DNA from: Myxococcales bacterium 68-20
Lineage (GTDB): Bacteria; Myxococcota_A; Polyangia; Polyangiales; Polyangiaceae
Reading direction: 5' to 3'
Length of the DNA: 64,000 nucleotides
Assembly: GCA_001899635.1 (NCBI GenBank)
Contig: MKVQ01000012.1
Coordinates: forward strand, 124,001 to 188,000
The notes under the pieces were generated by a model. The model was not told the origin of the DNA, made no database searches, and saw nothing but the letters and a program-made list of their open reading frames with translations. This document shows positions 39,054-62,056 of the stretch, piece by piece. How positions within the stretch are numbered: position 1 is the stretch's first letter; the number at the start of each line of letters is the position of its first letter. The translations under genes and the position numbers were made by a program.

Positions 39054-39165
39054 ACGTCGGACCGGACCGGCCACGCGCGACGGTACAGCACCTGCACGAC
39101 GGACCTCGCTCCGGCTCGCGAGGGCTCACCTCTCCCGAGTGAAGCGCAGCCGGTGCGGAGAAAAG

Positions 39166-40326: not shown

Positions 40327-40330
40327 CGTG

Positions 40331-40852: not shown

Positions 40853-40854
40853 GC

Positions 40855-41979
40855 ATGAAGCACGTGGCCGACGTCGTCGTCGCAGGTGCCGGCCCAGCAG
40901 GGCTCGCAGCGGCGATCCACGCCTCACGCGCGGGACTCCGGGTTGCCGTGCTCGATCCTCGTCCAGGCGTGATCGACAAGGCGTGCGGCGAAGGGATCAT
41001 GCCCGGTGGTGTCGAGGCCCTCACAGCGCTCGACATCCACCCGTTCGGCCTCCCCTTCCCCGGGGTGCGCTTCGCCGACGCGGTCGATCCCGACCTCGAT
41101 GCCGTGGGCCGGTTCCCGGTCGGGCTCGGTCTCGCCGTCCGTCGCACCGTCTTGCACGGCGCGATGCGAGAGCGAGCAGCAAGCCTCGGAGTCCGGTTCC
41201 ACGAGGTGCGTCTCGCCTCGTACGTGCAACGCTCCGACGGCGTCATCGTGAACGGCGAGCTGCGCGCGCGCTGGCTCGTGGCAGCGGACGGCCTTCGCTC
41301 GCATGTCCGGCGCACGCTCGGCGTCGAACGTCCGGCGCGAGGAAGCCCGCGGCTCGGCCTCCGACGTCACTATGCAATGCGCCCGTGGACCGATCGCGTA
41401 GAGGTGTACTTCGGCGAAGGTGTGGAGGCATACGTGACGCCGGTCGACGTGGACCTCGTCGGCGTCGCGTTCCTGTTCGAGGAGCGACCCGGGCGAGAGA
41501 CCGCAGCGAGGCGATTCGACGAGCTCCTCGCGAGCTTTCCGATCCTCGCGAGGCACCTCGCAGACAAGCCGTTCGGCTCGCGACTGCGCGGCGCGGGTCC
41601 GTTCGAGCAGAGGGTCGACAGGCGCGTCGTGGGAAACGTGCTGCTCGTCGGAGACGCGGCGGGCTACGTGGATCCGCTCACGGGAGAAGGTGTCGCGCTC
41701 GGTCTGGCGACCGCCGAGGCTGCCGTCGCGAGCATCCTCGAGGGGATGCCGGACGCGTACGAGTCGCGCTACCGGCGGCTCACGCGCCGCTACTTCGCGA
41801 TGACGCGCGGGCTCCTCGCCGTCGCGCGCCGACGTAACTTGCACGCGCCGATGTTGCGCCTCGCCCGTGCCATGCCCCGAGCCTTCGACGCGGCGCTCGG
41901 CGCGCTTGCTCATCTCCACGCGGCCGATGATGCGAACACTCGGCCCGCTGACCGAAGATCTCTACCGCAGACGTCATGA
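40855..41979 (+). CDS. FAD-dependent oxidoreductase, geranylgeranyl reductase/hydroxylase family
   Basis: The 374-residue flavoprotein has a dinucleotide-binding VVVAGAGPAGLAAAIHASR near the N terminus, a second FAD motif WLVAADGLRSHVRR and GDAAGYVDPLTGEGVALGL near residue 265. CGEGIMPGG is typical of the geranylgeranyl reductase/SrsC-like group. The position matches SrsC, the hydroxylase that converts methylated alkylresorcinol to a quinone-type product. The ATG at 40855 lies two bases after the ICMT stop. NADPH use is expected but not shown by sequence. Confidence 0.9.
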   Translation: MKHVADVVVAGAGPAGLAAAIHASRAGLRVAVLDPRPGVIDKACGEGIMPGGVEALTALDIHPFGLPFPGVRFADAVDPDLDAVGRFPVGLGLAVRRTVLHGAMRERAASLGVRFHEVRLASYVQRSDGVIVNGELRARWLVAADGLRSHVRRTLGVERPARGSPRLGLRRHYAMRPWTDRVEVYFGEGVEAYVTPVDVDLVGVAFLFEERPGRETAARRFDELLASFPILARHLADKPFGSRLRGAGPFEQRVDRRVVGNVLLVGDAAGYVDPLTGEGVALGLATAEAAVASILEGMPDAYESRYRRLTRRYFAMTRGLLAVARRRNLHAPMLRLARAMPRAFDAALGALAHLHAADDANTRPADRRSLPQTS

Positions 41980-45050: not shown

Positions 45051-45433
45051 CGCCGACGATCCTGACGGTGGAGGACGACGCCGACCTCCGGACCCTCATC
45101 AGTGTCGTCCTGGAGGAGGAAGGCTATGTCGTGATCACGGCGATGAACGGGCGCGAGGCTCTCGCTCGCGTCCAGGAGCACATGCCCGATCTGATCCTGC
45201 TCGACCTCAGGATGCCCGTCATGTCGGGCGTCGAGTTCGTCTCGCAGTATCAGGCTCGGTATGGGAACGGCCCGAGAGCACCTTTCATCGTGATGACCGC
45301 CGGAGAGCACGCATCTCGGCGCTGCCAGGAGCTCCGCGGGAGCGGCTTCCTTCCGAAGCCGTTCTCCACCGACGAGCTGCTCGACGTGGTCAGGAAACAC
45401 GCTCCGCTACGTCGGCCTGCACTGGGAGTGTGA
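45047..45433 (+). CDS. Single-domain response regulator (receiver only)
   Basis: The 128-residue product is a complete CheY-like receiver: acidic pair EDDAD near residue 9, phospho-acceptor Asp53 in LLDLRMP, Thr84 in IVMTAG and Lys104 in FLPKPF. It has no output domain. The ATG overlaps the dehydrogenase stop by ATGA, so the two are co-translated. Its 3' end overlaps by 44 bp, tail to tail, the gene for a large pseudokinase-histidine kinase, which is the natural candidate partner. Confidence 0.93.
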   Translation: MTPTILTVEDDADLRTLISVVLEEEGYVVITAMNGREALARVQEHMPDLILLDLRMPVMSGVEFVSQYQARYGNGPRAPFIVMTAGEHASRRCQELRGSGFLPKPFSTDELLDVVRKHAPLRRPALGV

Positions 45434-47831
45434 GGTGGAAGGTGCTTCCCTCTCCTTCTCTGCTCTCCGCCTCGACGTTCCCTCCGTGCAGCACGGCGAC
45501 GGCCTTCGCCACGTAGAGCCCGAGCCCGAGGCCACCGGAGTCGTACGCAGTGTCCGTATGGGCGCGATAGAACGGCTCGAACAGGTCCGCCTGCTTGTCC
45601 TTCGGGATGCCAATCCCGTGGTCCTCGATGTCGACCGTCGCGCGACCATCCTTCCGCCCCATCCGGATCTGCACGTCGCCGCCACCGGGCGAATAGCGGA
45701 GCGCATTGTCGAGGAGACCGACGACCGCTCTCTCGACCAGCAGTCGGTCCGCGGTGACGATCATGGGGCGGCAGCTCACGACCTCGACGCGGCGGGAGGT
45801 CTCCCGCTCGAAGCGCCCGACGACCAAATCCACGAGCTCGACGAGGTCGACCCCAGCCTCGGGCGCCAGGGCGAGCCGGCCCGTCTGCAGCTGCCACAAG
45901 AGCAAAAGATCGGTGACGAGCCGATCGATTCGGTCGGTCCCGCGGATCAGCGCATCGAGGAATCGCTGCTGCTTTCCGGAGGCCTTGTCGATCCGGCGAA
46001 GGAGGTCCGCGTATCCCTTCACGATCGCGACCGGCGTCTTCAGCTCGTGGGCGACGACGCGGATGAACTGCTCCTTGAGCCGATCGAGCTCGATCGCCTC
46101 GGTCACGTTCAGCGCCAGCGACACGGCTCCGGCGAGGGCACCGCGCTCGTCCTGGAGCGGCGCCGCGCTCACGCGCAGGTGAATCGCGCGGCCGGTGCCC
46201 GGATGACGAACGGTCATGTCGACCGAGCTCAGGACCTCACCAGCGAGCGCGCGCAGCAGCGGGAGCTCGTCGACCTCGAACGGCTCGCCGTCGGGGCGCA
46301 TCGGGCGAAGGCGCTGGCAGAACATCTCCACCGGCAACGGTCCCCCTCCGGAGACGTCCACGAGCCCGAACAGGCGCAGCGCCGCTGGGTTGGTGAACGT
46401 GAGCCGCCCGGCGCGATCACACACGAGGACGGCATCGACCATGTTGTCGAGGATCGCGCGCAACGTTGCCTCGGCCTGTTGCCGCTCCGCGATCTCCCGC
46501 AGCTGCGCGGCGTGGAGCTTTGCATTCTCGAGCGAGATGCCGGCCTGGTCGGTGAGGAGCTCGGCCACCGCCATCCTGTCCTTGGTGAATGCCGACGCGA
46601 CGAGATCGTTCTCGAGGTAGACGATCCCGAGCAAGGTCGTGTGGCGGACGATCGGAAGGCAGGCGATCGACTTCGGCCGCTTCGTCGCGATGTACGGATC
46701 AGTCGAATGGGGGTTGGGAATGCTCGCATCGCTGATGAGCAGCCGCTCGCGCGTGCGGATCACCTGCTCGACGATGGACGCCGGCACACCGCCGACCGGA
46801 CCAGCCGAGCACTCGATCGCCGAGCCACCGCCCGAGACCGAGAGGAACACCGCTCTCCGCGCGCCTGCCTGCTCCGTGAGGAGTCGCGTCAATCCGCGAA
46901 GAAGTCTCCACCGCGCGGTCTCGTTCGAGAGCACCTGCGCGAGCTCGAGCAACGTGCCCCGCATCGCGGCCGCGGTGGCGCCGCTGGGCGCAGAGGCTGC
47001 TCCGTCGAAGAGCTGCTGCGACGACGGCACGTCGAGGCAGCGTGCGAGATCGTCGTGCAGCTCCGCCGCGGTTTGGTAACGATCCTCCGGGAGCTCCTGG
47101 AGGAGCTTCGACACGATGTCCGAGACGGCGCACGCCGGATGGAGGGCGGACGGCCGCACGGCCTCGGCGAGATGGCGCTGCGCCCACCCGAGCACGTCGT
47201 CCTTCTCACCGGGTCGCAGCCCCGTGAGCATCTCGACGAGGATCACGCCGACGGCGTAGAGGTCCGCGCGCCGGTCGAGCGCCCTGTCGAGCCGACCGCC
47301 CTGCTCCGGCGCCATGTACGGCGGCGTTCCCTCGATCGCGTTGCTCGCGGTGTCGTGTCGTCCCTCCGCAGTCGTCGTCGCGATCCCGAACCCCGTGAGC
47401 TTGACCTCACCGGTGCGAGCGTCGAAGTACACGTTCTCGGGCTGGAGGTTCCGATGGACGAGGCCCTTGCGATGAACGCTCTCGAGGCACGAGGCCAGCC
47501 GCGCCGCGATCCGCAGCGCGAGCCCGACCTCCATCGGAGCGCCCATCGCCTGCCGCAACGGAACGCCGCCGAAATCTTCGAGCACGAGCGCCGGGCGACC
47601 TTCGAACGTGCTCATCTCCACCGGATGAAGCGCGACTGAAGGGTCGAGCGCGCCGGCGACCTCGAGCTCACGCCGCAAGGGATCGGCCGCGCGCGGGTCG
47701 TTCGTGCGCTGGACCTTGAGCAGACGGCTGCGACCGTCCCGAGCGCTCACGACACGGCGGATCGAGACACATCGATCCTCGTGGACGATCCGAAGGACCC
47801 GGTAGGGCTCTGCAGCCAGGGTCGCCGTCAT
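45390..47831 (-). CDS. Pseudokinase - GAF - PAS - histidine kinase hybrid
   Basis: The 813-residue protein starts with a Ser/Thr-kinase-like domain (about 8-265). Lys39 and APE (PPYMAPEQ) are kept, but the catalytic Asp is Asn128 in LVHRNLQPENV and DFG is GFG at 147-149, so phosphotransfer is unlikely. A GAF domain (about 300-440), a PAS domain (about 455-580), a HisKA domain with His595 in VVAHELKTP and a HATPase domain (690-805; NALRYSPGGG, DHGIGIPKD, GGLGLGLYV) follow. The histidine kinase half looks active. The start at 47831 fits the kinase fold. It converges on and overlaps the response regulator gene. Confidence 0.92.
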   Translation of the reverse strand: MTATLAAEPYRVLRIVHEDRCVSIRRVVSARDGRSRLLKVQRTNDPRAADPLRRELEVAGALDPSVALHPVEMSTFEGRPALVLEDFGGVPLRQAMGAPMEVGLALRIAARLASCLESVHRKGLVHRNLQPENVYFDARTGEVKLTGFGIATTTAEGRHDTASNAIEGTPPYMAPEQGGRLDRALDRRADLYAVGVILVEMLTGLRPGEKDDVLGWAQRHLAEAVRPSALHPACAVSDIVSKLLQELPEDRYQTAAELHDDLARCLDVPSSQQLFDGAASAPSGATAAAMRGTLLELAQVLSNETARWRLLRGLTRLLTEQAGARRAVFLSVSGGGSAIECSAGPVGGVPASIVEQVIRTRERLLISDASIPNPHSTDPYIATKRPKSIACLPIVRHTTLLGIVYLENDLVASAFTKDRMAVAELLTDQAGISLENAKLHAAQLREIAERQQAEATLRAILDNMVDAVLVCDRAGRLTFTNPAALRLFGLVDVSGGGPLPVEMFCQRLRPMRPDGEPFEVDELPLLRALAGEVLSSVDMTVRHPGTGRAIHLRVSAAPLQDERGALAGAVSLALNVTEAIELDRLKEQFIRVVAHELKTPVAIVKGYADLLRRIDKASGKQQRFLDALIRGTDRIDRLVTDLLLLWQLQTGRLALAPEAGVDLVELVDLVVGRFERETSRRVEVVSCRPMIVTADRLLVERAVVGLLDNALRYSPGGGDVQIRMGRKDGRATVDIEDHGIGIPKDKQADLFEPFYRAHTDTAYDSGGLGLGLYVAKAVAVLHGGNVEAESREGEGSTFHLTLPVQADVAERVS

Positions 47832-48119
47832 GGCACCACATTGTCTAGGCCGCCGAGCGCCGCTTCGCGAACTCACGCTCAGCTCGGATAGCGACGCGGC
47901 AGATGTTCTTCTCGTGCTCGTCACTCGACGGCGCGGAAGGTCAGCTCTTCGCGCGTCCCGCGGTTGGCCTGCCGGCCGCTTGGCCCGGTGCCCGCCCGAC
48001 GCCGCAGCGTGAACCGGCACCTCGCGGCGAGGAAGCTCACCGACGGGGCGGGCGTTGGCTCCCCCCGAGCATGCGATTAGGATGCCGATGGATGTCAGCG
48101 CGGTTCGGTGAGCCCCCAC
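47832..48119. other. Divergent intergenic region, no gene seen
   Basis: These 288 bases lie between the histidine kinase start and the MazF-type gene. I looked for a small antitoxin frame with coding bias upstream of the toxin and found none. Confidence 0.4.
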
Positions 48120-48506
48120 ATGGATACGACAGTGATGCCAACGAATAGGGGCATCCATTGCGGTGACGTCTTCTGGATCGAGCCCGATGAGTCACGAGGG
48201 TCGATTCCGGGCAGCCCGCACCCCCACGTCGTCGTCCAGGACGACGTCTTCAACCGCTCTCGGGTTCACACCGTGATCGTGTGTGCACTGACCTCGAACT
48301 TGAAGCGCGCAACCGAACCCGGGAACGTCCTCCTCGACGTGGGCGAAGGCAGCTTGTCCAAGCAGAGCGTCGTGATCGTGTCGCAGGTATCTTCCGTGGA
48401 GAAGACCAAGCTCGGTGAGTACATCGGGGCGCTCTCCGAGCTGCGAGTGCAGCAGATTCTGGACGGCATGCGGTTCCAGCAAGCGTCCTTCTTCGGTCGT
48501 CGGTGA
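48120..48506 (+). CDS. MazF/PemK-type toxin-like protein without visible antitoxin
   Basis: The 128-residue protein has the MazF/PemK core: GDVFWIEPDESRG, HPHVVVQDDVFNRSRV and VCALTSNLKRATEPGNV, with SVVIVSQVSSVEK and a C-terminal helix. MazF proteins are sequence-specific mRNA endonucleases normally paired with an antitoxin gene just upstream. No such gene is seen in the 288-bp gap. The ATG at 48120 is used; a GTG at 48108 and an ATG at 48135 are possible. It ends 29 bp from the end of the WD40/HEAT gene on the other strand. Confidence 0.83.
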   Translation: MDTTVMPTNRGIHCGDVFWIEPDESRGSIPGSPHPHVVVQDDVFNRSRVHTVIVCALTSNLKRATEPGNVLLDVGEGSLSKQSVVIVSQVSSVEKTKLGEYIGALSELRVQQILDGMRFQQASFFGRR

Positions 48507-48535
48507 CCGATCAGCGCGGTTTCGTGCTCGCCGAT

Positions 48536-51500
48536 CTACGCGGTCATGGTCACCCGGTAGATCGCACCGCTGCCCATGCCGACGAGGAGCTCCTCCTCGC
48601 CGGTGAATGTGACGCCCATCGTCTCGTGCTCGCCCGACGAGCCCCAGGCATTCACCAGCGTCATCAGTGTGCCGGAGGCGATGTCGCGGACCTCGAGGGT
48701 ACTGTCGTACGTGAACGCGACGAGCTTGCCACTCGGTGAGAACGCAGCGGTGTTGAAGATGCCGCTACCGCGGAGACAACGGAGCATCCGCTCGCCCTTC
48801 GGACCGTCGAAGACCCGGACGGCGTCGTCCGAGCCGACGCTCGCGAGGAGCTCCCCATGCGTCGCGAGGTACCCCACGGTCCGGTGCGGGTCTCCGTAGA
48901 GTTGGCCCTTGAGCATGTCGATGCCGTGCTCGACACGCTTCCAGAGGACGGTCCCCTGGGGGTCGAGGCATGCGATCTCGCCATCGTCGCTCCCTGCGTA
49001 GAACCGACCCGACGCGTCCACGGCGAGCGACTCGACGTCCTCGAACGGGACCATCGCGACTTCCTCGCCCCGCTGGCGATCTACGACGTGGACGCCGTCG
49101 TTACCGGCCCACGCCACGTGGGTGCTGGAGGCGGCGACGTGCTCGACCTTGGGCATGTGCTCGGCGATGTCCTCCTCGATGTCGTCGCCGCCCACGATGG
49201 TGGTCACCTGACGCGACGCGAGGTCGAGGCAGCGCAGGTTGTGCTCGTCACCGAAGTACACGCAGTCCGCCTCCGGCGGCACGGCGACCTGGTCGATGCG
49301 GCCGTCACGAGCGACGAGCGGCTCGGCGATCCCGCCTTCGGGCTTCCAGAGAAGGACTCGCCCGTCCCAACCGTTGGTGAGGAGGCGCCCGTCCGGCAGG
49401 CGCCGGATGCCGCAAACATGGTTCTGGTGCACGCTGGTGACGACCGAAGCAGCTTCGTCCGTATGGAACCTCACGAGCGTGTCAGCGAAGAGCGCGTAGA
49501 TGCGCTTGCCGGAAGCCGCGAGGCCACCGGCCGGACCCCGCCGGATGTCGTCGAAGCGCGGTGACTTGCCGCCGAGCTTCACGCGCTGGAGCCGCTCGGC
49601 GAATCGAAGAACGAGCGACTTGTCGTTCTCGATCGCGAGATCGAGGATGGGCTCGTCGGTCTCTACCTCGAGCTTCGGTGCCAGCTTGGAATCGTGGATG
49701 GCCGCTGACCTCTCGCCTGCGGTGGCGAGCCACTTGCCGCACGTCACGAGCCTGGTCGCGAGCGGGACGGCGACGACAGCGCTCTTGTTCTTCGGGACGT
49801 CGACGTCGACGAGGACGCTCTTCTTCGCCTTGTCCGCGAGGAAGACGGCGCGCTTCGCTCCGAGCCAGCCGGCACCACGCACCGTGCCGGGCGCCTTGGC
49901 GTCGAACACCTCTTTTCCGTCCTTCACATCGAGGACGCGGAGGACGTTCGCGCTCGTGCCACAGGCGATCTGCGCGGCGTCGGGTGAGAACGCAATCGCG
50001 GTCACCTGGCCGGGCGCCTCGAGCCGTCCGACGAGCTCACCGCTCTTGCCGTCGTACACGCCGATCTTGTTGCCGCGAACGAGCGCGAAGCGTGAGCCGT
50101 CGGCGGCGATCGCACACGCGGTGACGTCCTCACCGTCACCGAGCGAGAGCAGGCGCTCGTTCGCTCGCGGGTCGAAGAGGAAGGACTCCGGCCCGACGAC
50201 GAGGATGCGTTCCGCGTCCTCCGCTAGCACCACGTGGGAGGCGCCGCGCGCGAACACGTACGCCGGTGCGTCGAAGCGCTCGACGCGCGCCTTCCTGAGA
50301 GGAGCGTCCTCCGGCCGCGTCCTCGCGCTCGTGCCGTCCGCGTTTTCGGGCTCGTCGGCGCCGAGGATCTTCACCTGCACCCAAGGGTTCTTGCTCGCAG
50401 CGAAGATCTTCTTCGCGGGTCCACCCGCGAGCTCCTCACCGACCTCGAGGTAGACGCCGATGTCGACGTCGAGCTCGATGTCGTCCCCATACGGCATCGT
50501 CATCCGCTCTTCGATTCGCTCGACGATGAACGTCGCGACCTGCGTCTTCGCCTTCGAGTCCTCCGCGAGCACCTTGACGATGTTGTGGCGGAAGAGCGCG
50601 GTACCATCCGCGAGCGCATCGAGGAGCGCTTTCGTCCCGCCGTTCTTCTTCGTCCACGCCACGCGTCCGGGGTCCCAAGCCACGAGCACCGGCGGCACGT
50701 CGAACGCCTTCTTCGCCGCCTCGCGAACGACGCGATACGGGCTCGTGATCTCCTTCTGCGCGAGCTTCCTGTCCTTCGCGTCGCCGTGCTCGGCAAGCGC
50801 GGACACGGCCATCGCACGGAGCGCGAGCGCCTCGGGTTCGTTCGTATGGTAGTCGATGATGGGCCAGTGGATGGCCGAGCGCGGGAGATCGAGCGGGAGC
50901 TTCTCTCCGAACGCACGGAGCAGGTGCTCGGCCGACAGACGAACGATGTCGACGCTCCACCCATCACCGCGCGTCTCGCGCAGGAGCCTCCGCGCGGGCT
51001 CGATTGCACGCTCGTCCTTCAGCTTCGCCAGCGCTGCGAACGCATGGATGAAGATCCCGGTGTGCACGTAGCGGAGGATCGCCGGCGCCGCGCGCTTCAC
51101 GTCTGCGTCGGCGAGGGTCGTCATGAGCTGCTCGGCCTCGCGAAGCGAGTCATCTTCGTCATCGACCTTCTCCAGCCGCGCGATCGCCTCATCGATGCCG
51201 ACTCCATGCGGGAGGAGCCGGTCCTGGAGGTCGGGGTTGGCGGCCAGCAGGCCTTCGGCGGGCTTGGTCTCGCCGATCTCGGCGAGCGAGCCCGCCACCT
51301 GGACCGATACGCGCGCCCACGAGTCCCCCTCATCCTGCGTCTTTTTCTTCGAGCGTAGCGCCTGGGCCTTGTCGTCGGTTCGCTTCAAGAGCGCAAAGAG
51401 GCCGGCGGATGCCTGCTTCGGAAACGTGTCGTCGAAGCGTTGCAGTGTCTGCACGAGGGAATACGGGTGGTCCTCGACGAGACAGTGCGCGAGGACGAGC

Positions 51501-51697
51501 GGGGCGAGGAGCGCGCCCGCCCCTTCAGCGCGAACCGCAGCATCGACGTCGGAGTCCTGGTCCTCCAGCGCGGCGTCGAAGCGAGCTAGCGCGAGGCCCA
51601 CATCGTCGCGCGTCTTCGCCTCGGCGGAGTAACGCTTCCTCAAAGCGGCAGCGTCGTGGACCAGAGAGAAGAGCGCGTCGAGGAGGGCGTCCGTCAT
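48536..51697 (-). CDS. Large HEAT-like plus WD40-type propeller protein
   Basis: The 1053-residue protein has no signal peptide or membrane helix. The first half is helical and HEAT-like (SLREAEQLMTTLADADVKRA, SPYRVVREAAKKAF). The second half, from about residue 500, holds WD40-like blades: VTAIAFSPDAAQIACGTS, ICGIRRLPDGRLLTNGWDG (seen as HVCGIRRLPDG then GRVLLWKPEGG), ASVGSDDAVRVFDGP and FNTAAFSPSGKLVAFTYDS. The ATG at 51697 lies 67 bp from the divergent start of the WGR-DUF4132 gene, so both probably share a regulatory region. Function is unknown. Confidence 0.88.
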   Translation of the reverse strand: MTDALLDALFSLVHDAAALRKRYSAEAKTRDDVGLALARFDAALEDQDSDVDAAVRAEGAGALLAPLVLAHCLVEDHPYSLVQTLQRFDDTFPKQASAGLFALLKRTDDKAQALRSKKKTQDEGDSWARVSVQVAGSLAEIGETKPAEGLLAANPDLQDRLLPHGVGIDEAIARLEKVDDEDDSLREAEQLMTTLADADVKRAAPAILRYVHTGIFIHAFAALAKLKDERAIEPARRLLRETRGDGWSVDIVRLSAEHLLRAFGEKLPLDLPRSAIHWPIIDYHTNEPEALALRAMAVSALAEHGDAKDRKLAQKEITSPYRVVREAAKKAFDVPPVLVAWDPGRVAWTKKNGGTKALLDALADGTALFRHNIVKVLAEDSKAKTQVATFIVERIEERMTMPYGDDIELDVDIGVYLEVGEELAGGPAKKIFAASKNPWVQVKILGADEPENADGTSARTRPEDAPLRKARVERFDAPAYVFARGASHVVLAEDAERILVVGPESFLFDPRANERLLSLGDGEDVTACAIAADGSRFALVRGNKIGVYDGKSGELVGRLEAPGQVTAIAFSPDAAQIACGTSANVLRVLDVKDGKEVFDAKAPGTVRGAGWLGAKRAVFLADKAKKSVLVDVDVPKNKSAVVAVPLATRLVTCGKWLATAGERSAAIHDSKLAPKLEVETDEPILDLAIENDKSLVLRFAERLQRVKLGGKSPRFDDIRRGPAGGLAASGKRIYALFADTLVRFHTDEAASVVTSVHQNHVCGIRRLPDGRLLTNGWDGRVLLWKPEGGIAEPLVARDGRIDQVAVPPEADCVYFGDEHNLRCLDLASRQVTTIVGGDDIEEDIAEHMPKVEHVAASSTHVAWAGNDGVHVVDRQRGEEVAMVPFEDVESLAVDASGRFYAGSDDGEIACLDPQGTVLWKRVEHGIDMLKGQLYGDPHRTVGYLATHGELLASVGSDDAVRVFDGPKGERMLRCLRGSGIFNTAAFSPSGKLVAFTYDSTLEVRDIASGTLMTLVNAWGSSGEHETMGVTFTGEEELLVGMGSGAIYRVTMTA

Positions 51698-51764
51698 GGG
51701 CAGACCAACGTATCCAGCTCGTTCTCCTCCGTCACCGGTGAACATCTTGCGCTACCTTCCCGAC

Positions 51765-54700
51765 ATGCGGCGCTTCGAGCTGGTGGACGGTACGTCGTCG
51801 AAATTCTGGGAGATCGACACGGAGGGCGCGAGGCTGACGATCCGCTTCGGCAGGATCGGGAGCGCGGGACAAACGAAGTCGAAGGAGCTCGCGAGCGCGG
51901 CGAAGGCCGAGACGGAAGCTGCCAAGCTCGTCGCGGAGAAGACCGGCAAGGGCTACATCGAGATCGCGAGCGCGAATCCGGCGACCGAGGCGAGCACGAC
52001 GACGCCGAGACCTGCGCGTCCGGAAGAGGAGGTCATCGAGGCTCCGAGCGCGGCCCCGGTTGCGACGGTCGTCACGACGACCGCGACGGACGAGGGCGAG
52101 GACGAGGGAACGATCTCCTTCGACAGGCAACACTTCACGAAGAAGCTGCACGACGAGATCGTCGTCGTTTCGTGGCGGAACGCCCCCGCGCCGTACACGC
52201 CTGCCCCAAAGCCGCTCTCCCCGGCGGGGACGTTGCTCGCCCAGCTGCGCGCGGTCTTGCCGAAGGTGAAGGCCGAGGCAGAGACGGCGAAGGGCACGCC
52301 GTCATCCACCTCCGCAGAGCGCATGGCGCGCGTGTACGGCTGGAAGAGCATCGACGAGCTCGATGTCGAGCTCGCGGCGAATGCGTTCGCGCTCTTCCGC
52401 AACGCCGCGATCGGTCTCGAGACGCTGGTGCGCACGTTCGTCGCGGCGAAGGGTCTCGCATTCGCGCTCGAAGCGCTCGTACGCGGAGCGGAGCGTGGCC
52501 TGATCGTCGACACCGACGACTGGCCTTACCGGCTCATCGAAGGCCTCGTTCCATTCGCCGAGCACGAGCCCGCGAGAGCCGACGAGCGGGCCTTCAGCGC
52601 GCTCGAGAACGCAGCGCCCGGCCTCTACGCGCTACGGCGGCTCGTCGCCGGCGCCGACGATGCGAACTATGCGTCGGTGGTCACCGCCGCGCGGCGGCTG
52701 AGCGGCGACGCCACGAACGCGGGAGCGCTCGCCATCGCCGTGGTGCTGTCGGAGGAGACCGAGCTCGTCGATGCTGCCGCTCGCGCGATCCTCGCACCGC
52801 CGCCCGAGGCGGTCAGGGGTCCGGGCGCCGCGCTCGTCCTCACGTCGCTTCGCAACGTCGAGCTCGGGCGAGAGCTCTTCACCCGAGGGCTCGTCGTTCT
52901 CCACGATGACGAAGAAGACAGCCCCGCCTGGACGATGATCGCGCGGCTCGGCGTCCGTGCCGGATCGATTCTGGCGGCCGTCTCCGAGGACCAGAGGGAC
53001 GACGTCCTGACGTTCCTCGAGGCTGTGCGTGCTCCGGCCTCGTTCCGCGCACTCCTCTCGTTCCTCGGCAAGAAGAGCACTGCGAAGTCCGTCCAGCGCC
53101 TCCTCCTCGAGCATCCGAAGATCACGGCCGCAGCGCTCGCGCCCGTGCTCGCTCAGCCGAAACATGCCGACCATGCGAGCGCGAAGGTCCTCGCTGCCGC
53201 GCTCGCGAAGGCCCGTCCCGATCTCGACCTGCTCGCGGCGGCCCCAGCAGCTTCGGCGGCCCCGTCGCTGCCGCTGGCGACGGAGCACGATCTCCCGGCC
53301 TTTCTCGTCGAGCCGCCCTGGTCCAAGAAGGCGAAGGCGAGCGCGGACAAGCCCGAGAAGATCGAGCTCGAAGTCGAGCGCGTCCCGCTGTCGTGCACGT
53401 TCGAGGAGGGCGACCTCGACGCGCTCGCGGCGTACAGCGACTGGGGAGCGGAGGTCGGGGCCAACGCGAAATCGCGGACACGCGGTCAGTGGGAGCAGGA
53501 GATCGCCGAGGATCACAAATACGACCGCGTCATCGACCTCGCGCTGATGTTCGTCGGCCCCGAGGAACTCGCGCTCGCGGAGTGGAACGACGCCTCGGAC
53601 GAGCGCCGCCTCTACTACCCGAACGCCTACTACGGGGGCGCGTTCGCGGTGGCGCTCGCTCGTCGCGGAGTGAAGTTCGCGCCGGGCCTCTTGAAGCTGC
53701 TCCGTCTGCGACCAAGCGGTGCGGACCGCATGCCGATCGACGTCCTCGAGCCCGTCCTCCTCGGGTACGAGGGCACCGAGGTCGCCGAGCTCTTCATCGA
53801 CACGTTCGACTCCGGGAAGAAGATCCGCGCGGTCGCCGAAACCTGGAGCCGACGTCATCCCGAGACGATGGCGAAGACGGCAATCCCGATCGCGCTCGCT
53901 GGCGGCAAGCGCGCAGCGAACGCGATCGCGCTCCTCCAGTCGCTCGTCGCGCGTGACCGGGCGAGCGTCGTCGACGCCGTCGCGCGCGCGTACGAGGGCA
54001 CGTCGAAGAAGCCCGTCTCGCAGCTGCTCGACGCGATCGTAGGCACCGATCCGCTCGCCTACGTTCCCGCGAAGCTTCCCAAGCTGCCGGACCTCTTCAC
54101 CCCGAAGGCGCTTCCGCCGATCGTGACGAAGAAGCAGAAGGTCCTCCCCCCGGAGGCGGTCATGCACGTGGGGACGATGCTCGCCATCTCGGGCTCCGAC
54201 GCTCCTTACGCCGGACTTCGCCTGCTGCGCGAGGCGTGCACCGAGGCCAGCCTCCGTGAGTTCACGTGGGCGCTGTTCGAGTCTTGGATGGCGACCGGAT
54301 CTCCTCCGAAGGAAATGTGGATCCTGCATGCCCTCGGTTTCCTCGGCGACGACGAGACTGCACGCCGCCTCACGCCGATGATCCGCGCGTGGCCGGGCGA
54401 GCGCGCCGCTGCACGAGCCGTCGAGGCCCTTGGCGTCCTCGCCAACATCGGGACCGACCTCGCGCTCATGCTGCTGAACGGCATCGCGGAGAAGGTCCGA
54501 TTCGCGAGCATCCAGGAAGGCGCTCGGGCACGCATCGCCGAGATCGCGAAACGGCGCGGCCTAACGGCGGAGGAGCTCGGCGACCGGCTGGTGCCCGATC
54601 TCGGGCTCGACGTGCGCGGCGAGACCACGCTCGACTTCGGGCCGCGCTCCTTCCGCGTCGGATTCGACGAGCACCTCCAGCCGTTCGTCGTCGATCCTGA

Positions 54701-55544
54701 AGGGAAGAAGCTCGGTGCGCTCCCGAAGCCGGGGAAGAACGACGACGCATCGAAGGCGAAGGAAGCGACCGATCGCTTCAAGGCGCTGAAGAAGGACGTC
54801 GCCGCGATTTCCCGCATGCGCATCGAGCGCCTGCAGGCGACGATGATCTCCCGGCGCCGCTGGGACGAGAGCACGTTCCGCATGCTCTTCGTCGACAAGC
54901 CGCTCGTCCTCCAGCTCGCGCGCCGTCTGGTCTGGGGTGCGTGGGACTCTGCGGGCAAGCGGAGCGCGACGTTCCGGGTCGATCTCGATCGAGCGCTCTC
55001 GCACGAACGCGACGAGGCGTTCACGCTTCCGGAGCACGCAATGGTGGGCGTCGTTCATCCTTTCGATCTCTCGAAGGAGGAGCTGACGCGCTGGGGACAG
55101 CTGTTCGCCGACTACGAGATCGTGCAACCGTTCCCGCAGATCGGACGAGAGGTGTTCCGCGCGAACGACGAGGAGAGCAAGTCCGCCTCGCTCGCGCACG
55201 AGGCGCGGACCAACTTGCTCGAGAGCCGGCTCGACCGCTCGTTCCCTGCTCCGAAGCTCGTGTTCGGACTCGAGAAGCTCGGATGGAAGCGCGGCGGAGC
55301 GAGCGATGGCGGCTCCTTCTCCGGCCACTGGAAGGACTTCGTGGGCACAGACCTGATCGCCCACGTCGAATACGACGGCGCAGTCGGGATGGGCTACATC
55401 GACGAGAAGGAGACGCTCACGCTCTCGAGCATCTCGTTCGAGCGCCAGGTGAATCGCGAGTCGACGGGTCTCCCGATCGGCGACGTCGATGCGATCGTCG
55501 TAAGCGAGGTGCTGCGTGATCTGAGCCTGCTCGAAGGAGCGTGA
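51765..55544 (+). CDS. WGR-domain and DUF4132 protein (MolR/YehI-like)
   Basis: The 1259-residue protein begins MRRFELVDGTSSKFWEI with the WGR signature GRIGSAGQTKSKEL, a domain found in PARPs and bacterial nucleic-acid-linked proteins. An Ala/Thr/Pro linker leads to a long helical HEAT-like middle part. The last 250 residues, with FRMLFVDKPLVLQLARRLVW, HPFDLSKEELTRWGQLFADY and GHWKDFVGTDLIAHVEYDGA, match DUF4132. This arrangement is known in MolR/YehI-like proteins. The ATG at 51765 gives the canonical WGR start; a GTG at 51738 is possible. It is divergent from a WD40/HEAT gene. Confidence 0.9.
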   Translation: MRRFELVDGTSSKFWEIDTEGARLTIRFGRIGSAGQTKSKELASAAKAETEAAKLVAEKTGKGYIEIASANPATEASTTTPRPARPEEEVIEAPSAAPVATVVTTTATDEGEDEGTISFDRQHFTKKLHDEIVVVSWRNAPAPYTPAPKPLSPAGTLLAQLRAVLPKVKAEAETAKGTPSSTSAERMARVYGWKSIDELDVELAANAFALFRNAAIGLETLVRTFVAAKGLAFALEALVRGAERGLIVDTDDWPYRLIEGLVPFAEHEPARADERAFSALENAAPGLYALRRLVAGADDANYASVVTAARRLSGDATNAGALAIAVVLSEETELVDAAARAILAPPPEAVRGPGAALVLTSLRNVELGRELFTRGLVVLHDDEEDSPAWTMIARLGVRAGSILAAVSEDQRDDVLTFLEAVRAPASFRALLSFLGKKSTAKSVQRLLLEHPKITAAALAPVLAQPKHADHASAKVLAAALAKARPDLDLLAAAPAASAAPSLPLATEHDLPAFLVEPPWSKKAKASADKPEKIELEVERVPLSCTFEEGDLDALAAYSDWGAEVGANAKSRTRGQWEQEIAEDHKYDRVIDLALMFVGPEELALAEWNDASDERRLYYPNAYYGGAFAVALARRGVKFAPGLLKLLRLRPSGADRMPIDVLEPVLLGYEGTEVAELFIDTFDSGKKIRAVAETWSRRHPETMAKTAIPIALAGGKRAANAIALLQSLVARDRASVVDAVARAYEGTSKKPVSQLLDAIVGTDPLAYVPAKLPKLPDLFTPKALPPIVTKKQKVLPPEAVMHVGTMLAISGSDAPYAGLRLLREACTEASLREFTWALFESWMATGSPPKEMWILHALGFLGDDETARRLTPMIRAWPGERAAARAVEALGVLANIGTDLALMLLNGIAEKVRFASIQEGARARIAEIAKRRGLTAEELGDRLVPDLGLDVRGETTLDFGPRSFRVGFDEHLQPFVVDPEGKKLGALPKPGKNDDASKAKEATDRFKALKKDVAAISRMRIERLQATMISRRRWDESTFRMLFVDKPLVLQLARRLVWGAWDSAGKRSATFRVDLDRALSHERDEAFTLPEHAMVGVVHPFDLSKEELTRWGQLFADYEIVQPFPQIGREVFRANDEESKSASLAHEARTNLLESRLDRSFPAPKLVFGLEKLGWKRGGASDGGSFSGHWKDFVGTDLIAHVEYDGAVGMGYIDEKETLTLSSISFERQVNRESTGLPIGDVDAIVVSEVLRDLSLLEGA

Positions 55545-56836: not shown

Positions 56837-56869
56837 CGACCTCGCAAAGACCCGCCCAATACCTGGGTG

Positions 56870-57436
56870 ATGGCCGCGCAGATGGCCATAATCGCAGACG
56901 GCGTGAACGAGGAGCAGGTTAGGCGCGCGGACTTTCGCGCTCTCTTCCGGTCCCACTTTCGCTTCGTGTGCGTCACCCTGAGACGCCTCGGCGTCCGGGA
57001 CAGTGACGTCGAAGACGTCGCGCAGGAGGTCTTTGTCTCCGTCCACCGGAAGCTCGACAGCTACGACGCCACTCGTCCGCTCGAGCTCTGGCTCTTCGGC
57101 TTCTGCCTTCGGACGGCCTCCACGTATCGACGCCTCGCGCGTCACACCCGGCTCGTGCACGAGGAGACCGACGTCGAGATCGCCCACTCCGAGCCCTTGG
57201 CCGACGACCAGATCGCCGCGGAGCAGAACCGCCGAATGGTCCTCGCCGCGCTCGACGCCATCGACAACGACCGGCGTGCCGTCTTCGTCATGCACGACCT
57301 GAACGAGTTCCCCGCTTCGCAGATCGCCGAGATGCTCGCCCTTCCCGTCAACACCGTCTACTCGCGCCTCCGCCTCGCACGCGAGGAGTTCCGGAAGGCC
57401 GTGTTCCGCATTCGCGCGGCGCAAGGCTCACGATGA
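56870..57436 (+). CDS. ECF-type RNA polymerase sigma factor
   Basis: The 188-residue protein contains region 2 (RALFRSHFRFVCVTLRRLG, DSDVEDVAQEVFVSVHRKL, LWLFGFCLRTASTYRRLAR) and region 4 (RRAVFVMHDLNEFPASQIAE, then NTVYSRLRLAREEFRKAV). Its stop overlaps the next gene as ATGA. The order of ECF factor, single-pass TPR protein and lipoprotein genes suggests it drives this cluster. It is only distantly like the ECF factor at 9271. The start at 56870 is used; a GTG three bases earlier and an ATG at 56882 are possible. Confidence 0.9.
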   Translation: MAAQMAIIADGVNEEQVRRADFRALFRSHFRFVCVTLRRLGVRDSDVEDVAQEVFVSVHRKLDSYDATRPLELWLFGFCLRTASTYRRLARHTRLVHEETDVEIAHSEPLADDQIAAEQNRRMVLAALDAIDNDRRAVFVMHDLNEFPASQIAEMLALPVNTVYSRLRLAREEFRKAVFRIRAAQGSR

Positions 57437-58203
57437 TCGATCACACCGACAACGATCATCCGGGTCCGATCGACGCGGAGCTCCGCTCGCTCCTCGACGA
57501 CGCGCGCTCGCGCGATGCGCTGGATCCGGCGTTCGAGGAGCCCGCGCGCGAGCGGGTGCTCGGACGAGTCGAGCAGGTGCTCGATCGAGCTCCGGGCGCT
57601 GCTCGTGGCGGCTTCGGACTCCGGTCGGGTGTGATGGCCGTCTCCGTCGCTCTCATCGCAGCGCTGGCCGGAGGAAAGATCCTCGGCGGGGACCCCGGCG
57701 ACTCGTCGGATGCTCGCGCCCCCGTCGCGAGCGCCATCGCTCCGCAGGTCGCCATCGATCGTCCCGGCGCACCGCCGACCGCTCCCGCGCCGGCCCAGCC
57801 GCAAGGCGATGCCGTCCCGCTGATGCGCATCGACGAGCTCCCGTCGCCTCCGACGCCTGCTCCTGCTCGGTCGAGTCGGATCGATTCGTCGCGCGGCTCC
57901 GCGCCCTCGGGCACCGACCTCGCCGAGGAGTATCGGTTGGTCGATGGGGCGCGCGCCAAGCTGGCAGCGAAGGACTACACCGGTGCGCTCCAGTCGGTCC
58001 GCGAGCATGAGAAGCGCTTCCCGAGCGGCCAGCTGAATCAAGAGCGCGAGAGCCTCTACATCCAGGCGCTCGTCGAAACGGGGCGCATCCCGGAAGCGCG
58101 CGAGCGAGCAGAGCGCTTCCGCACGCGCTTCCCGAGCGGCCTTCTACTCCCGACCGTCGCGCGAGCCATCGCGAGCAGCGCGCCGAACTCCGCGCCTCGC
58201 TGA
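57433..58203 (+). CDS. Single-pass membrane protein with TPR-like periplasmic domain, probable anti-sigma factor
   Basis: The 256-residue product has a short acidic N terminus (residues 1-58), one membrane helix at about 65-83 (GVMAVSVALIAALAGGKIL), a Pro/Ala linker and a C-terminal TPR/YbgF-like domain (AEEYRLVDGARAKLAAKDYT, ALVETGRIPEARERAERFR). The layout of cytoplasmic stub, helix and periplasmic sensor is that of anti-sigma factors. No zinc-binding motif is seen in the stub. The gene overlaps the ECF gene by ATGA. The lipoprotein series starts 61 bp downstream. Confidence 0.82.
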   Translation: MIDHTDNDHPGPIDAELRSLLDDARSRDALDPAFEEPARERVLGRVEQVLDRAPGAARGGFGLRSGVMAVSVALIAALAGGKILGGDPGDSSDARAPVASAIAPQVAIDRPGAPPTAPAPAQPQGDAVPLMRIDELPSPPTPAPARSSRIDSSRGSAPSGTDLAEEYRLVDGARAKLAAKDYTGALQSVREHEKRFPSGQLNQERESLYIQALVETGRIPEARERAERFRTRFPSGLLLPTVARAIASSAPNSAPR

Positions 58204-58264
58204 CGTCCTCTCGCGACGACAGCAGACCGAGCCTCTTCATCTCCGTCCTCACGTCAGGGTGCAC

Positions 58265-59497
58265 ATGTTCCCCAGCAGATACAGGTCGATCTTTGTCGTG
58301 ACGATGCTCACGGGCTCCGCCGTGGCGCTCGCGAGCGGGTGCGCCGAGACCTCGATCGAGGTCGGGACGCTCGTCGATCAGGATGCGGGTCCGCAACCAC
58401 CGAGCTTCACGGATCCGGACTCCGGAAGTGACGCCGATGCGCGTGCGCAGGAGCCCGTCCTGCTCTGCATCGCGACCGCGTGCCCGGCGCCGTTCGACAC
58501 GTGCGGAACCGGCTACCGCTGCAGCACCAACCTCTCGAACGATTCGAACAACTGCGGGGAGTGCGGGAAGGTCTGTCCGGACTCGTTCGGCTACCTGAAC
58601 ATGACGTCCACGTGCGTGGATGGGACGTGCGAGCCGACGTGCGGCAAGAAGCTGGCCGGCGGCAAGTTCTGGAACTATGCAGACTGCAACGGCGTCGCCG
58701 AAGACGGATGCGAGATCAATATCTCCACCGATCCGAACAACTGCGGCGCGTGCGGGAACAAGTGCGCGGACGGCGTGGAGTGCATCGAGGGCAAGTGCGG
58801 ACTCCCTCCCGGACACGCGCTCTGCTGGGGGGAGGTCATCGACGTTCGGAACGACGACTACAACTGCGGAGCGTGCGACAACTGGTGCGAACCACCCCCG
58901 GGCGCCGACGAGCTGCCGGACCACATGGTCTACGGCTGCACCAACGGCGAGTGCGGTCAGCCGAAGTGCAAGGACGACTTTGGCGATACCTGGATGGACT
59001 GCGACGGAAACCCGAACAACGGCTGTGAGGTCTACGTCGGGTGGGACTCGTCGCTGGCCGACCCGAACAACTGCGGCGCGTGCGGGAAGAAGTGCACGGG
59101 AGATCAGATCTGCGCGGTCCGCCAACTTGCGGACCGTCCGTCATGCACCTGCGAGAACCCGCAGGAGACACGGTGTGGAAGCACCGATACCTACGACCTC
59201 GGCTGCTTCGACCTGCTGAACGATCCGAACAACTGCGGGACCTGCTTCAACAAGTGCACCGCCTACGCGCGCAATACGGCCGCGTCGTGTCGGAAGGGAG
59301 TCTGCGAGTCCGGCTGCTTGCCGGGCTGGGGTGACTGCGACGGAGACCCGAGGAACGGCTGCGAGACCAACCTCATGGTCAGTGACGGTCACTGCGGCGC
59401 GTGCGGGAACCGTTGTGACACGCAAGCTGGTCAGCCGTGCGTCGAGGGCCAGTGCGCGATGACGGAGTGCGATGCAGGGAGCGTTGTGCCGCAATGA
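58265..59497 (+). CDS. Cys-rich lipoprotein with DCDGxPxNGCE / NNCGACGxxC repeats
   Basis: The 410-residue protein has a signal peptide ending in VALASGC-AE. The body has about six copies of a Cys repeat: NNCGECGKVC, NNCGACGNKC, YNCGACDNWC, NNCGACGKKC, NNCGTCFNKC and HCGACGNRC, several preceded by DCxGxxxxGCE. These repeats are a myxobacterial surface-protein theme and must be disulfide-linked. The ATG at 58265 is used; a GTG six bases earlier is possible. Its stop overlaps the start of the next lipoprotein by ATGA. Confidence 0.85.
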   Translation: MFPSRYRSIFVVTMLTGSAVALASGCAETSIEVGTLVDQDAGPQPPSFTDPDSGSDADARAQEPVLLCIATACPAPFDTCGTGYRCSTNLSNDSNNCGECGKVCPDSFGYLNMTSTCVDGTCEPTCGKKLAGGKFWNYADCNGVAEDGCEINISTDPNNCGACGNKCADGVECIEGKCGLPPGHALCWGEVIDVRNDDYNCGACDNWCEPPPGADELPDHMVYGCTNGECGQPKCKDDFGDTWMDCDGNPNNGCEVYVGWDSSLADPNNCGACGKKCTGDQICAVRQLADRPSCTCENPQETRCGSTDTYDLGCFDLLNDPNNCGTCFNKCTAYARNTAASCRKGVCESGCLPGWGDCDGDPRNGCETNLMVSDGHCGACGNRCDTQAGQPCVEGQCAMTECDAGSVVPQ

Positions 59498-60729
59498 ACT
59501 GCCCGTCGAAGAAGAATCTCATGGTGGCGTCAGGCCTCGTCGGCCTTCTCATGCTCGCCTCGGCGGTCGCGAGTTGCGCCGAGTCTGAAGCAGGAACGGA
59601 GGCGCCCGAGCCGACGCATCCTCTCCCCGATGCGCAAGCGGACCTCGACGCGGGCGCGGATGCATCGGCGGACGCCGACTGCCTCGGCGACGGCGACGGC
59701 GGCTGCACGACCCACGAGCTCACCTGCGCCGAGGCCGACTTCTGCGCGGTCACCACCGGGGTCGATAGCCGCTACGCGCTCCTCGACGTATGGGGCACGT
59801 CGGACAAGGACGTGTGGGCGGTAGGCTCGGGCGGCACGGTCATCCACTGGGACGGCTCCGCGTGGAAGGGCATCCCCCTCGGGCGGAGAGAAACGCTTCG
59901 CGGCGTGGGCGGCCGCTCCGCGAACGACGTGTTCATCGTCTCGTCGATGAACGTCGTCTTTCACACCACGGGCGTTCAGAACGGCAGCGCCACCTTCACC
60001 CTCGAGGCGCCCGTCGATCGCCAGAACCCCAACAACTCCCAGGGATACACGCTGACGAAGGTCTGGGCGGCCCCGACGGGCGAGCTCTTCGTCGGTGGTC
60101 CGGCCACGTTCACGTCGCCTCAGAACAGCCTCTGGCGTCATCATCCCGGCGTCGTTCCGAACGAAGGCGGGGCTTATCCCTGGGAGGCCGCGTCGACGTT
60201 CTGCACGGTGCAGCCGTGCTTCAGCGTCAACGCCATCTGGGGAACGAGCGCGAACGATATCTGGGTCGTCGGGAAAGATGGCGGCCTCCGCCGGTCGAAG
60301 GGCCCCGTCGGCGGCGGCGGCGCCGAGCAGTGGGACAACATCAGGACGACGCTCACGACCGCCGAGCTCAACGGGATCTGGGGGAGCAGCGCGTCGGACG
60401 TGTGGATCGTCGGCGATGAAGGGACGATCCGGCACTGGGCGAACGACGGCACGGAGCGTTGGGAGATCGTGGAGTCTCCCACGAAGAAGAACCTGCGTGC
60501 GGTGTGGGGGACGAGCCCGACAGACGCGTGGGCCGTCGGCGATGAAGGGACGATCCTGCACTGGGACGGTAAGGCGTGGAGCCTCGCGACTGCGACCTTG
60601 CCGGTCGGACCGAAGCCGCGCCTCTACGGCGTGTGGGGGAGCGGTCCGAACGACGTGTGGGTCGTGGGCGAAGCCATCGCTCTCCACTTCACGGGAGCAA
60701 AATCCCCGATGACGACGAAGGCCAACTGA
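59494..60729 (+). CDS. Lipoprotein with WG..VW..G beta-propeller-like repeats (first)
   Basis: The 411-residue protein has a lipoprotein signal (LASAVASC-AE) and an Asp/Ala-rich linker (ADLDAGADASADADC). The body has about six repeats of the form DVWGTSDKDVWAVGSGG, GIWGSSASDVWIVGDEG and VWGTSPTDAWAVGDEG, each followed by an HWDG-type strand. Such repeats build beta-propellers. The gene overlaps the Cys-rich gene by ATGA and is followed after two bases by a related gene. The role is probably surface binding; the ligand is unknown. Confidence 0.85.
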   Translation: MNCPSKKNLMVASGLVGLLMLASAVASCAESEAGTEAPEPTHPLPDAQADLDAGADASADADCLGDGDGGCTTHELTCAEADFCAVTTGVDSRYALLDVWGTSDKDVWAVGSGGTVIHWDGSAWKGIPLGRRETLRGVGGRSANDVFIVSSMNVVFHTTGVQNGSATFTLEAPVDRQNPNNSQGYTLTKVWAAPTGELFVGGPATFTSPQNSLWRHHPGVVPNEGGAYPWEAASTFCTVQPCFSVNAIWGTSANDIWVVGKDGGLRRSKGPVGGGGAEQWDNIRTTLTTAELNGIWGSSASDVWIVGDEGTIRHWANDGTERWEIVESPTKKNLRAVWGTSPTDAWAVGDEGTILHWDGKAWSLATATLPVGPKPRLYGVWGSGPNDVWVVGEAIALHFTGAKSPMTTKAN

Positions 60730-60731
60730 CG

Positions 60732-62039
60732 ATGACCCCCATCACGAACCGGCGGATCCTCTTCACCACGCTTCTCGCCTCTGCCCTCGCCGCGCCAGCG
60801 ATCGCTTGCTCGAACGGCGACGACACGAACGGCATCAGCGACGACGGACAGCCCGACGCGAGCGCTCCCGACGCGCCCGCGATCCCGAACGACGCAGAGG
60901 ACGCTTCTGCCCCGGACGGCGACGCGAGCACGGAGGCCGGCGCCACGGATGCAGCTCCGCGCACGTGCTCCGAGGACGCGGTCTGCCATACACCGCTGCC
61001 TCCGAGCTCGTTCCTGAGGGACGTATGGGGCGACGGCGACGGCGTGGTCTGGGCCATCGGCTGGAAGCACCGCCTCCACACCAACGCCGACGGCGTCATC
61101 CTTCGCTGGGACGGCACAGCCTGGACAGAACATTCCACGATCCCGTTGCGCCTCAACGCCGTGTGGGGGAGCAGCCCGACGGACATCTGGGTCGGAGGCG
61201 ACGGCGGTCTCTTCCACGGGACGGGCCCGTCCTCGGCCGCGATCACGTGGACGAAGGTGCGGAGCGAGCCCATCCTCTCGATCTGGGGCTCGAGCGCGAA
61301 CGACGTCTGGGCCGTCGGTCACACACAATACTCCTTCAACGGGAAGGTGCTTCACTACCGAGGCGGTGGCGACGGCTGGGAGATCGATCCGATCTCGTCG
61401 CGCCCGGCCGCGTATCGAAAAGTGTGGGGCACGAGCGCCTCCGACGTGTGGCTCGGCGCGAACGAGTTCTCCACATGCGGATACGACCACTGCAACGGCA
61501 CGCGCGCGTTCGCCCTGCACAGAGCTCCTGACGGTACGTGGAGCGAGGATGGGCTGCCCGATTTCATCGGCCTCGGGCAGGGGGGCGGCCTCAACCCCGG
61601 CAGCGAGTTCTCCGGCGGCGGTTCGATCACGGAGGGCAGCGTCTGGATGATGGGCAGCCGGGCGCCGACGACGTACGAGTACCCGACGTGGGGCCCCGTC
61701 ACCGACGTGCTCTTCGTCGGCACGCGGAAGGCCGACGGCTCCGGCTACACCTGGTCCGACACGACGTTCGGGACGTGCATCGGGTTCGACTGCAAGGGCA
61801 TCTGGTTCAATCGCGCGGTCTGGGGAAAGACCCCGAACGACGTGTACCTCGCCGGTGACCAGGGCCAGCTCCGACACTGGAACGGGACGAGCTTCTCCTA
61901 CGTCAAGACCAAGCTCGAGAAGATCCCCTTGATGACCTCGTTCTACGCGATGTGGGGCTCGTCGAGCACCGATCTCTGGATCGTTGGCGACGAGGTCGCG
62001 CTCCACAAAGTCGACAAGAGCGAGCGCTCCAAACTCTGA
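60732..62039 (+). CDS. Lipoprotein with WG..VW..G beta-propeller-like repeats (second)
   Basis: The 435-residue paralogue of the preceding protein has signal ASALAAPAIAC-SN, a long Asp/Ala/Pro linker (PDASAPDAPAIPNDAEDAS) and repeats such as AVWGSSPTDIWVGGDGG, SIWGSSANDVWAVGH and KVWGTSASDVWLGANEF. A Gly-rich insert (LGQGGGLNPGSEFSGGGS) breaks the pattern. It starts two bases after the previous stop, so co-translation is likely. The two proteins have diverged strongly outside the repeats, indicating an old tandem duplication. Confidence 0.85.
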   Translation: MTPITNRRILFTTLLASALAAPAIACSNGDDTNGISDDGQPDASAPDAPAIPNDAEDASAPDGDASTEAGATDAAPRTCSEDAVCHTPLPPSSFLRDVWGDGDGVVWAIGWKHRLHTNADGVILRWDGTAWTEHSTIPLRLNAVWGSSPTDIWVGGDGGLFHGTGPSSAAITWTKVRSEPILSIWGSSANDVWAVGHTQYSFNGKVLHYRGGGDGWEIDPISSRPAAYRKVWGTSASDVWLGANEFSTCGYDHCNGTRAFALHRAPDGTWSEDGLPDFIGLGQGGGLNPGSEFSGGGSITEGSVWMMGSRAPTTYEYPTWGPVTDVLFVGTRKADGSGYTWSDTTFGTCIGFDCKGIWFNRAVWGKTPNDVYLAGDQGQLRHWNGTSFSYVKTKLEKIPLMTSFYAMWGSSSTDLWIVGDEVALHKVDKSERSKL

Positions 62040-62056
62040 AGCGAAGGCGCAGGTTC

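Follow-up and report, generated by a model that had tools for sequence, protein, structure and literature searches.

A WGR-DUF4132 gene outside the yeh-type operon and its divergent HEAT-WD40 neighbour in Myxococcales bacterium 68-20

The DUF4132 family and its usual operon

Proteins carrying a DUF4132 domain are usually encoded in an operon of the form MoxR-DUF5682-(WGR-)DUF4132-VWA-SWIM, and it is with this arrangement that the subject of the present analysis has to be compared: a gene for a WGR-DUF4132 protein of Myxococcales bacterium 68-20, located in a 64,000-nucleotide stretch of contig MKVQ01000012.1 (the window), whose start lies 67 bp from that of a divergently oriented gene for a HEAT-WD40 protein, with a MazF toxin gene on the far side of the latter. 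Escherichia coli K-12 has, in sequence, yehF (WGR), yehH (pseudogene), yehI (DUF4132), yehK, yehL (MoxR), yehM, yehP (VWA), and yehQ (SWIM). A single gene at the yeh locus of E. coli CP088875 (L104) encodes WGR and DUF4132 together, and YehM is annotated there as DUF5682; comparison of the two loci (L045:6475-13912 and L104:8492-15922) sets yehF and the pseudogene yehH of K-12 where the other E. coli has one WGR-DUF4132 gene, and intact copies do exist. The same operon set, DUF4132 gene included, is found on plasmids of Sinorhizobium and Iodobacter. DUF4132 matches occur in 19 plasmid records, and among five that were inspected four hold the known operon and one an orphan gene, while no WGR-DUF4132 gene was found in phage records or viral contigs. 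In Deinococcus radiodurans, dr2173 (WGR) and the drA0165-drA0166 operon (DUF4132) are reported to be strongly upregulated on depletion of the DNA-damage repressor DdrO, with the role of these genes unknown (PMC8533742). A HEAT-WD40 partner for DUF4132 is not described in those portions of the DUF4132 literature that were examined.

The window protein resembles the E. coli CP088875 product in combining WGR and DUF4132 in one chain, and its DUF4132 homology to the yeh locus runs over several hundred residues; against the Sinorhizobium pBSY16_2 protein, tblastn returned 37 per cent identity over 66 per cent of the query. Counterparts of the MoxR, DUF5682, VWA, and SWIM genes of the yeh locus, however, were not found adjacent to the window gene. 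The only DUF5682 match of its genome is instead on contig C30, flanked by MoxR and VWA genes, and these three are homologues of YehL, YehM, and YehP (phmmer E 1e-148, 2e-155, and 1e-130; Pfam AAA_5, DUF5682, and VWA_CoxE). No DUF4132 gene stands beside the C30 trio (L167:6872-12741), and the genes scanned there, to which the search for SWIM was confined, include none identified as SWIM. The C30 MoxR frame reads at 783 residues against 362 in E. coli YehL, its start being unsettled. By sequence, the window protein is thus a free-standing member of the YehI/'MolR' DUF4132 family, outside the usual operon. The first-pass annotation had described DUF4132 as a domain of unknown function: no function is indeed known, but the domain does have a known place, namely this operon.

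Such free-standing genes are common in the order to which the bacterium belongs. DUF4132 is encoded at 103 places in 35 of its 144 genomes, and DUF5682 lies within 15 kb of at least 31 of these (22 genomes; a minimum, since some places are at contig ends), leaving 72 without it at that distance, some of them at contig ends, so that the family is patchy and often orphan. The window's genome itself has four DUF4132 places (the window gene, L042, L043, and L044), whose proteins align over a common core of several hundred residues, and the L042 and L044 proteins are without WGR. At L043:8809-13137 (contig C35) a 1443-residue propeller-DUF4132 fusion, with an N-terminal BNR/YCF48-type region and DUF4132 at its C-terminus, lies near an HSP70-family gene. 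The DUF4132 family profile matched no chain of the PDB, and a fold predicted by single-sequence AlphaFold was not used (predicted local distance difference test score, pLDDT, 41.9).

The WGR domain of the window protein is the sole one of its genome (G000), and the closest solved WGR protein is 2ra8 (E 8e-14). Translation from the ATG gives the N-terminus MRRFELVDG, the place at which YehF and the WGR protein of genome G402 (discussed below) also begin. WGR occurs in DNA-damage-responsive PARPs; a Pfam scan of the 1268-residue WGR-DUF4132 reading frame returned WGR and DUF4132 only, with no PARP catalytic domain.

Two further kinds of described system invite comparison. MoxR-vWA-beta-propeller ternary systems, proposed to act in conflict, have proteins of very great size that contain helical regions as well as beta-propellers (eLife e52696, 2020, main text), a likeness to the present locus, whereas neither of its two large proteins nor any scanned neighbour has a vWA or MoxR match; by term counts, the main text of that report is silent on DUF4132, WGR, MolR, and DUF5682. 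The PADLOC set HEAT-ARM_XIII/WGR_XIII, in which we take XIII to stand for retron type XIII, names the same domain kinds, and the window HEAT-WD40 protein does match HEAT-ARM_XIII at 2.8e-7. That match, however, covers ∼110 residues of one propeller (∼107 of 1972 profile positions), the WGR_XIII match stands at 0.079 over 61 of 973 positions, and none of the four HEAT-WD40 relatives matches HEAT-ARM_XIII, so this identity was dropped. Reverse transcriptase, MoxR, DUF5682, VWA, and SWIM genes were all lacking among the genes Pfam-scanned around the locus.

Linkage of the HEAT-WD40 and WGR genes

The arrangement described in the first-pass annotation, two large repeat-protein genes on opposite strands with starts 67 bp apart and a toxin gene ending 29 bp from the end of one of them, agrees with the coordinates, and the MazF and HEAT-WD40 genes converge on those 29 bp. 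In each of the three reading frames, the GC content by codon position is distributed as in coding sequence. The MazF, WGR, DUF4132, and WD40 labels are upheld by Pfam, and the HEAT label by matches of the family profile to designed HEAT-like alphaRep chains (best E 3e-12) together with the predicted fold.

The HEAT-WD40 protein (WD40, PF00400, 47.6 bits; cut-off 27) was modelled from a four-row alignment at pLDDT 71.6 as a helical half followed by two propellers, with residues ∼104-215 poorly predicted. Alignment of the model to the two seven-bladed propellers of AIP1 (1nr0) with VIA-align gave Z 32.3 over 551 residues at a root-mean-square deviation of 5.4, in rows that spanned the propellers only, and the matches from Foldseek included Utp21 (4nsx; E 1.4e-21, TMt 0.68). 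Both have two propellers in tandem, but they are eukaryotic, are ∼10-14 per cent identical over the match, and leave the HEAT half unmatched, so that fold alone is in common. A Foldseek search of viral proteins returned mostly generic propellers. No catalytic domain was recognised, and on this model the HEAT-WD40 protein is of scaffold type.

The family is rare. Its gene is single-copy in the window's genome, and although 47 of the 144 genomes of the order pass E 0.001, only G102 and G059, apart from the window's own genome, match along most of the length; the others do so partially and mostly in the propellers. A three-row profile detects 13 of the 377 genomes of the phylum at 1e-20. In five of them the match extends across the model (G000, G102, G059, G396, and, in two pieces, G402), whereas in the other eight it is confined to a part. 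When the HEAT half alone served as profile, the same five were recovered from the 317 genomes of the class. Among named genomes, full-length relatives were found in three, a Myxococcales, a Sandaracinus, and a Kofleriaceae metagenome-assembled genome (these correspond to G102, G059, and G396), and a further four match part of the propeller region only.

It is in one of these few genomes that the HEAT-WD40 gene again adjoins a WGR gene. The G402 relative (L068:8078-10441, minus strand, 787 residues) is without ∼290 model positions of the propeller region, and 27 bp downstream on the same strand is a gene whose product carries WGR twice, together with TIGR02996 and leucine-rich repeats (LRR), and matches NCBIfam STM4015 in part. 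G402 has 11 WGR domains in 10 proteins. Under a uniform gene-order model with one gene per 1150 bases assumed, the chance of at least one such adjacency among the four other genomes is roughly 0.0046; the window was excluded from this figure because it prompted the question, and counting it would give 6e-6, which overstates the case. In the window, the only WGR gene of an 11.9-Mb genome and a single-copy HEAT-WD40 gene adjoin each other. In the literature searched, this pairing is undescribed.

Alternative readings of the locus

We tentatively favor, at somewhat less than an even chance, the reading that the locus consists of a two-gene WGR/scaffold unit with an unrelated MazF neighbor. In its favor are the rarity of the HEAT-WD40 family, its second placement beside a WGR gene, the adjacency in the window of two genes that are each the only one of their kind in the genome, the lack of any other neighbor family common to the five HEAT-WD40 loci, the double-propeller fold with no catalytic domain recognised, and the Deinococcus expression data. 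Several observations weigh against it. The recurrence comes from one extra locus, and the window and G402 are unlike in the orientation of the linked genes (divergent in the window, co-directional in G402), in the architecture of the WGR partner, which in G402 has two WGR copies and is without DUF4132, and in propeller number. The fetched stretches around the HEAT-WD40 genes of G396, G102, and G059 hold no WGR gene, with two, one, and one WGR matches elsewhere in those genomes, and the 13 other WGR-DUF4132 genes examined all lack a HEAT-WD40 neighbor. LexA-like sites, scanned with a myxobacterial motif, are missing from the 67-bp gap and number 8 in the window against 15.9 expected; a scan of the gap for sigma-70-like sites was likewise empty, which is uninformative here. 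The missing pairings in the other genomes are what would be seen if the WGR-DUF4132 gene were an orphan, the HEAT-WD40 gene specific to its lineage, and the MazF gene solitary, with only their place in common, and the patchy occurrence of DUF4132 in the order points the same way; such chance neighborhood is quite possible, set as it is against the adjacency of HEAT-WD40 and WGR genes in G402 (∼0.005 by chance once that of the window is given) and the close divergent spacing in the window. The WGR-DUF4132 gene is a real orphan of ordinary appearance, from a family that is little understood, and stands beside a rare scaffold gene; no new system is demonstrated.

The first-pass annotation had likened the architecture to conflict or stress systems built from a sensor scaffold and an effector, to be refuted if linkage of all three genes did not recur. 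In such a three-gene conflict system WGR-DUF4132 would sense damage or phage, HEAT-WD40 would be the scaffold, and MazF would cut RNA as the effector. The MazF profile match is good (PemK/MazF, PF02452, E 7e-22, 78 bits; cut-off 23.1), yet the three genes are adjacent in the window only. A MazF homologue was found at none of 43 other loci, comprising 36 DUF4132, WGR, or DUF5682 stretches, three paralogues, and the four HEAT-WD40 relatives (phmmer, 1e-5, at which a too-diverged MazF or one in a reading frame below 80 residues would be missed), and these loci hold no HEAT-WD40 relatives beyond the four known ones. MazF cannot share the HEAT-WD40 promoter, because its gene converges on the HEAT-WD40 gene. 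The nearest solved chain is MazF6, and alignment with it and with another mRNA interferase chain of the PDB puts a His where the conserved Arg of the RP motif, a catalytic residue, should be; PADLOC has no match for the protein. On non-recurrence, orientation, and this His, MazF was rejected as a part of the system, it looks like a separate neighbor gene and a bystander, and the three-gene proposal is highly improbable. What survives of it is the HEAT-WD40/WGR link in one of the four other HEAT-WD40 genomes.

It is also conceivable that WGR-DUF4132 acts in trans with the MoxR-DUF5682-VWA trio of C30, as a detached part of a yehI-yehLMPQ type system, the HEAT-WD40 protein then being incidental or an added platform. 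The vacancy for DUF4132 at C30, the intact operons of E. coli, Sinorhizobium, and Iodobacter, and the 31 DUF4132 places of the order near DUF5682 would suit this, but the three other DUF4132 proteins of the genome could fill that vacancy and no SWIM gene was seen at C30, and we regard it as improbable. At 4 of the 13 other WGR-DUF4132 genes, relatives of MoxR, DUF5682, VWA, or SWIM are on the stretch. When neighbors were compared all against all, the clearest recurrent family was that of YehM relatives (three genomes); a YehQ relative belongs to one of several groups that span two genomes, and two larger groups (seven and four members) are at varied distances; the five HEAT-WD40 loci have no further neighbor family in common. 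At L171:10898-13990 and L182:3309-6176, the gene divergent from WGR-DUF4132 encodes a TPR-CHAT protein whose N-terminus is signal-like, and at L182 DUF5682, VWA, and SWIM come downstream; the TPR-CHAT protein was set aside as a general partner, being seen in two related genomes only (genus g17).

Should the two-gene WGR/scaffold unit be real, its two large proteins would form a complex in which the WGR domain contacts nucleic acid, probably binding it or a damaged end, and in which the long helical body and the DUF4132 domain would relay this signal to an output. The HEAT-double-propeller protein would most likely serve the WGR protein as a scaffold or as a partner for docking, and both genes could be controlled from the 67-bp gap. 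The module is perhaps damage- or nucleic-acid-responsive, with a role that may lie in stress or defence; the link to DNA damage is proposed because of the WGR domain of PARPs and the DdrO-depletion data from Deinococcus. A broader version is doubtful, in which one HEAT/WD40 scaffold family would be the fixed partner of WGR proteins with a swapped rear (DUF4132 or TIGR02996-LRR), these being its variable part, as sensor or effector, in a complex that detects damage or invaders, and the whole a two-component module of the class not described before.

Surroundings of the locus and bearing on the family

The features of the locus are collected in Table 1. The window is part of a 337-kb contig in an assembly of 52 contigs.

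Table 1. Positions of the genes, domains, and intergenic gap discussed in the text, in window coordinates.
Feature	Position	Strand	Details
MazF/PemK-type protein	48138..48506	+	122 aa from ATG; GTG 48108 possible; PF02452
HEAT + double WD40 propeller protein	48536..51697	-	1053 aa; start codon 51697, stop codon from 48536
Two WD40-type beta-propellers, ∼residues 467-1053	48539..50299	-	Predicted model; 1nr0 match
N-terminal HEAT-like helical region, ∼residues 1-466	50300..51697	-	alphaRep/HEAT profile matches; helices in model
Gap between divergent starts of HEAT-WD40 and WGR-DUF4132	51698..51764	.	67 bp; candidate shared control region
WGR-DUF4132 protein	51765..55544	+	1259 aa with ATG 51765 as start; possible in-frame GTG start at 51738
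WGR domain	51771..51971	+	Pfam PF05406, 60.8 bits (cut-off 22)
DUF4132 domain	54702..55193	+	Pfam PF13569, 148 bits (cut-off 27)

To the left of the locus are a protein-kinase/GAF/PAS/histidine-kinase fusion, which holds Ser/Thr-kinase, GAF, PAS, HisKA, and HATPase domains within a single reading frame (45390-48158, minus strand), an adjoining response regulator gene, and a dehydrogenase gene. The reading frame upstream of MazF (47903-48148, 81 residues), the sole upstream frame tested as an antitoxin candidate, has no Pfam match. To the right (56867-63406, plus strand) an ECF-type sigma factor gene is followed by genes for predicted secreted or lipoprotein-like proteins, a series of Cys-rich, BNR-like, and RCC1-repeat proteins of which some have lipoprotein-like N-termini. 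Elsewhere in the window, a single protein (19000-21192, plus strand) combines MshEN, protein-kinase, and PilZ domains, MshEN and PilZ being domain kinds that bind cyclic di-GMP in other proteins, and at 38791-41979 (plus strand) a gene resembling chalcone synthase (type III polyketide synthase) precedes one resembling an FAD-binding monooxygenase, the two being possibly a small biosynthetic pair.

DUF4132 is widespread, is carried on plasmids in conserved operons, and is upregulated on DdrO depletion in Deinococcus, all with its function unknown. A free-standing WGR-DUF4132 protein with one candidate partner would be a smaller test case than a five-gene operon for what this family binds and for the role that it plays.

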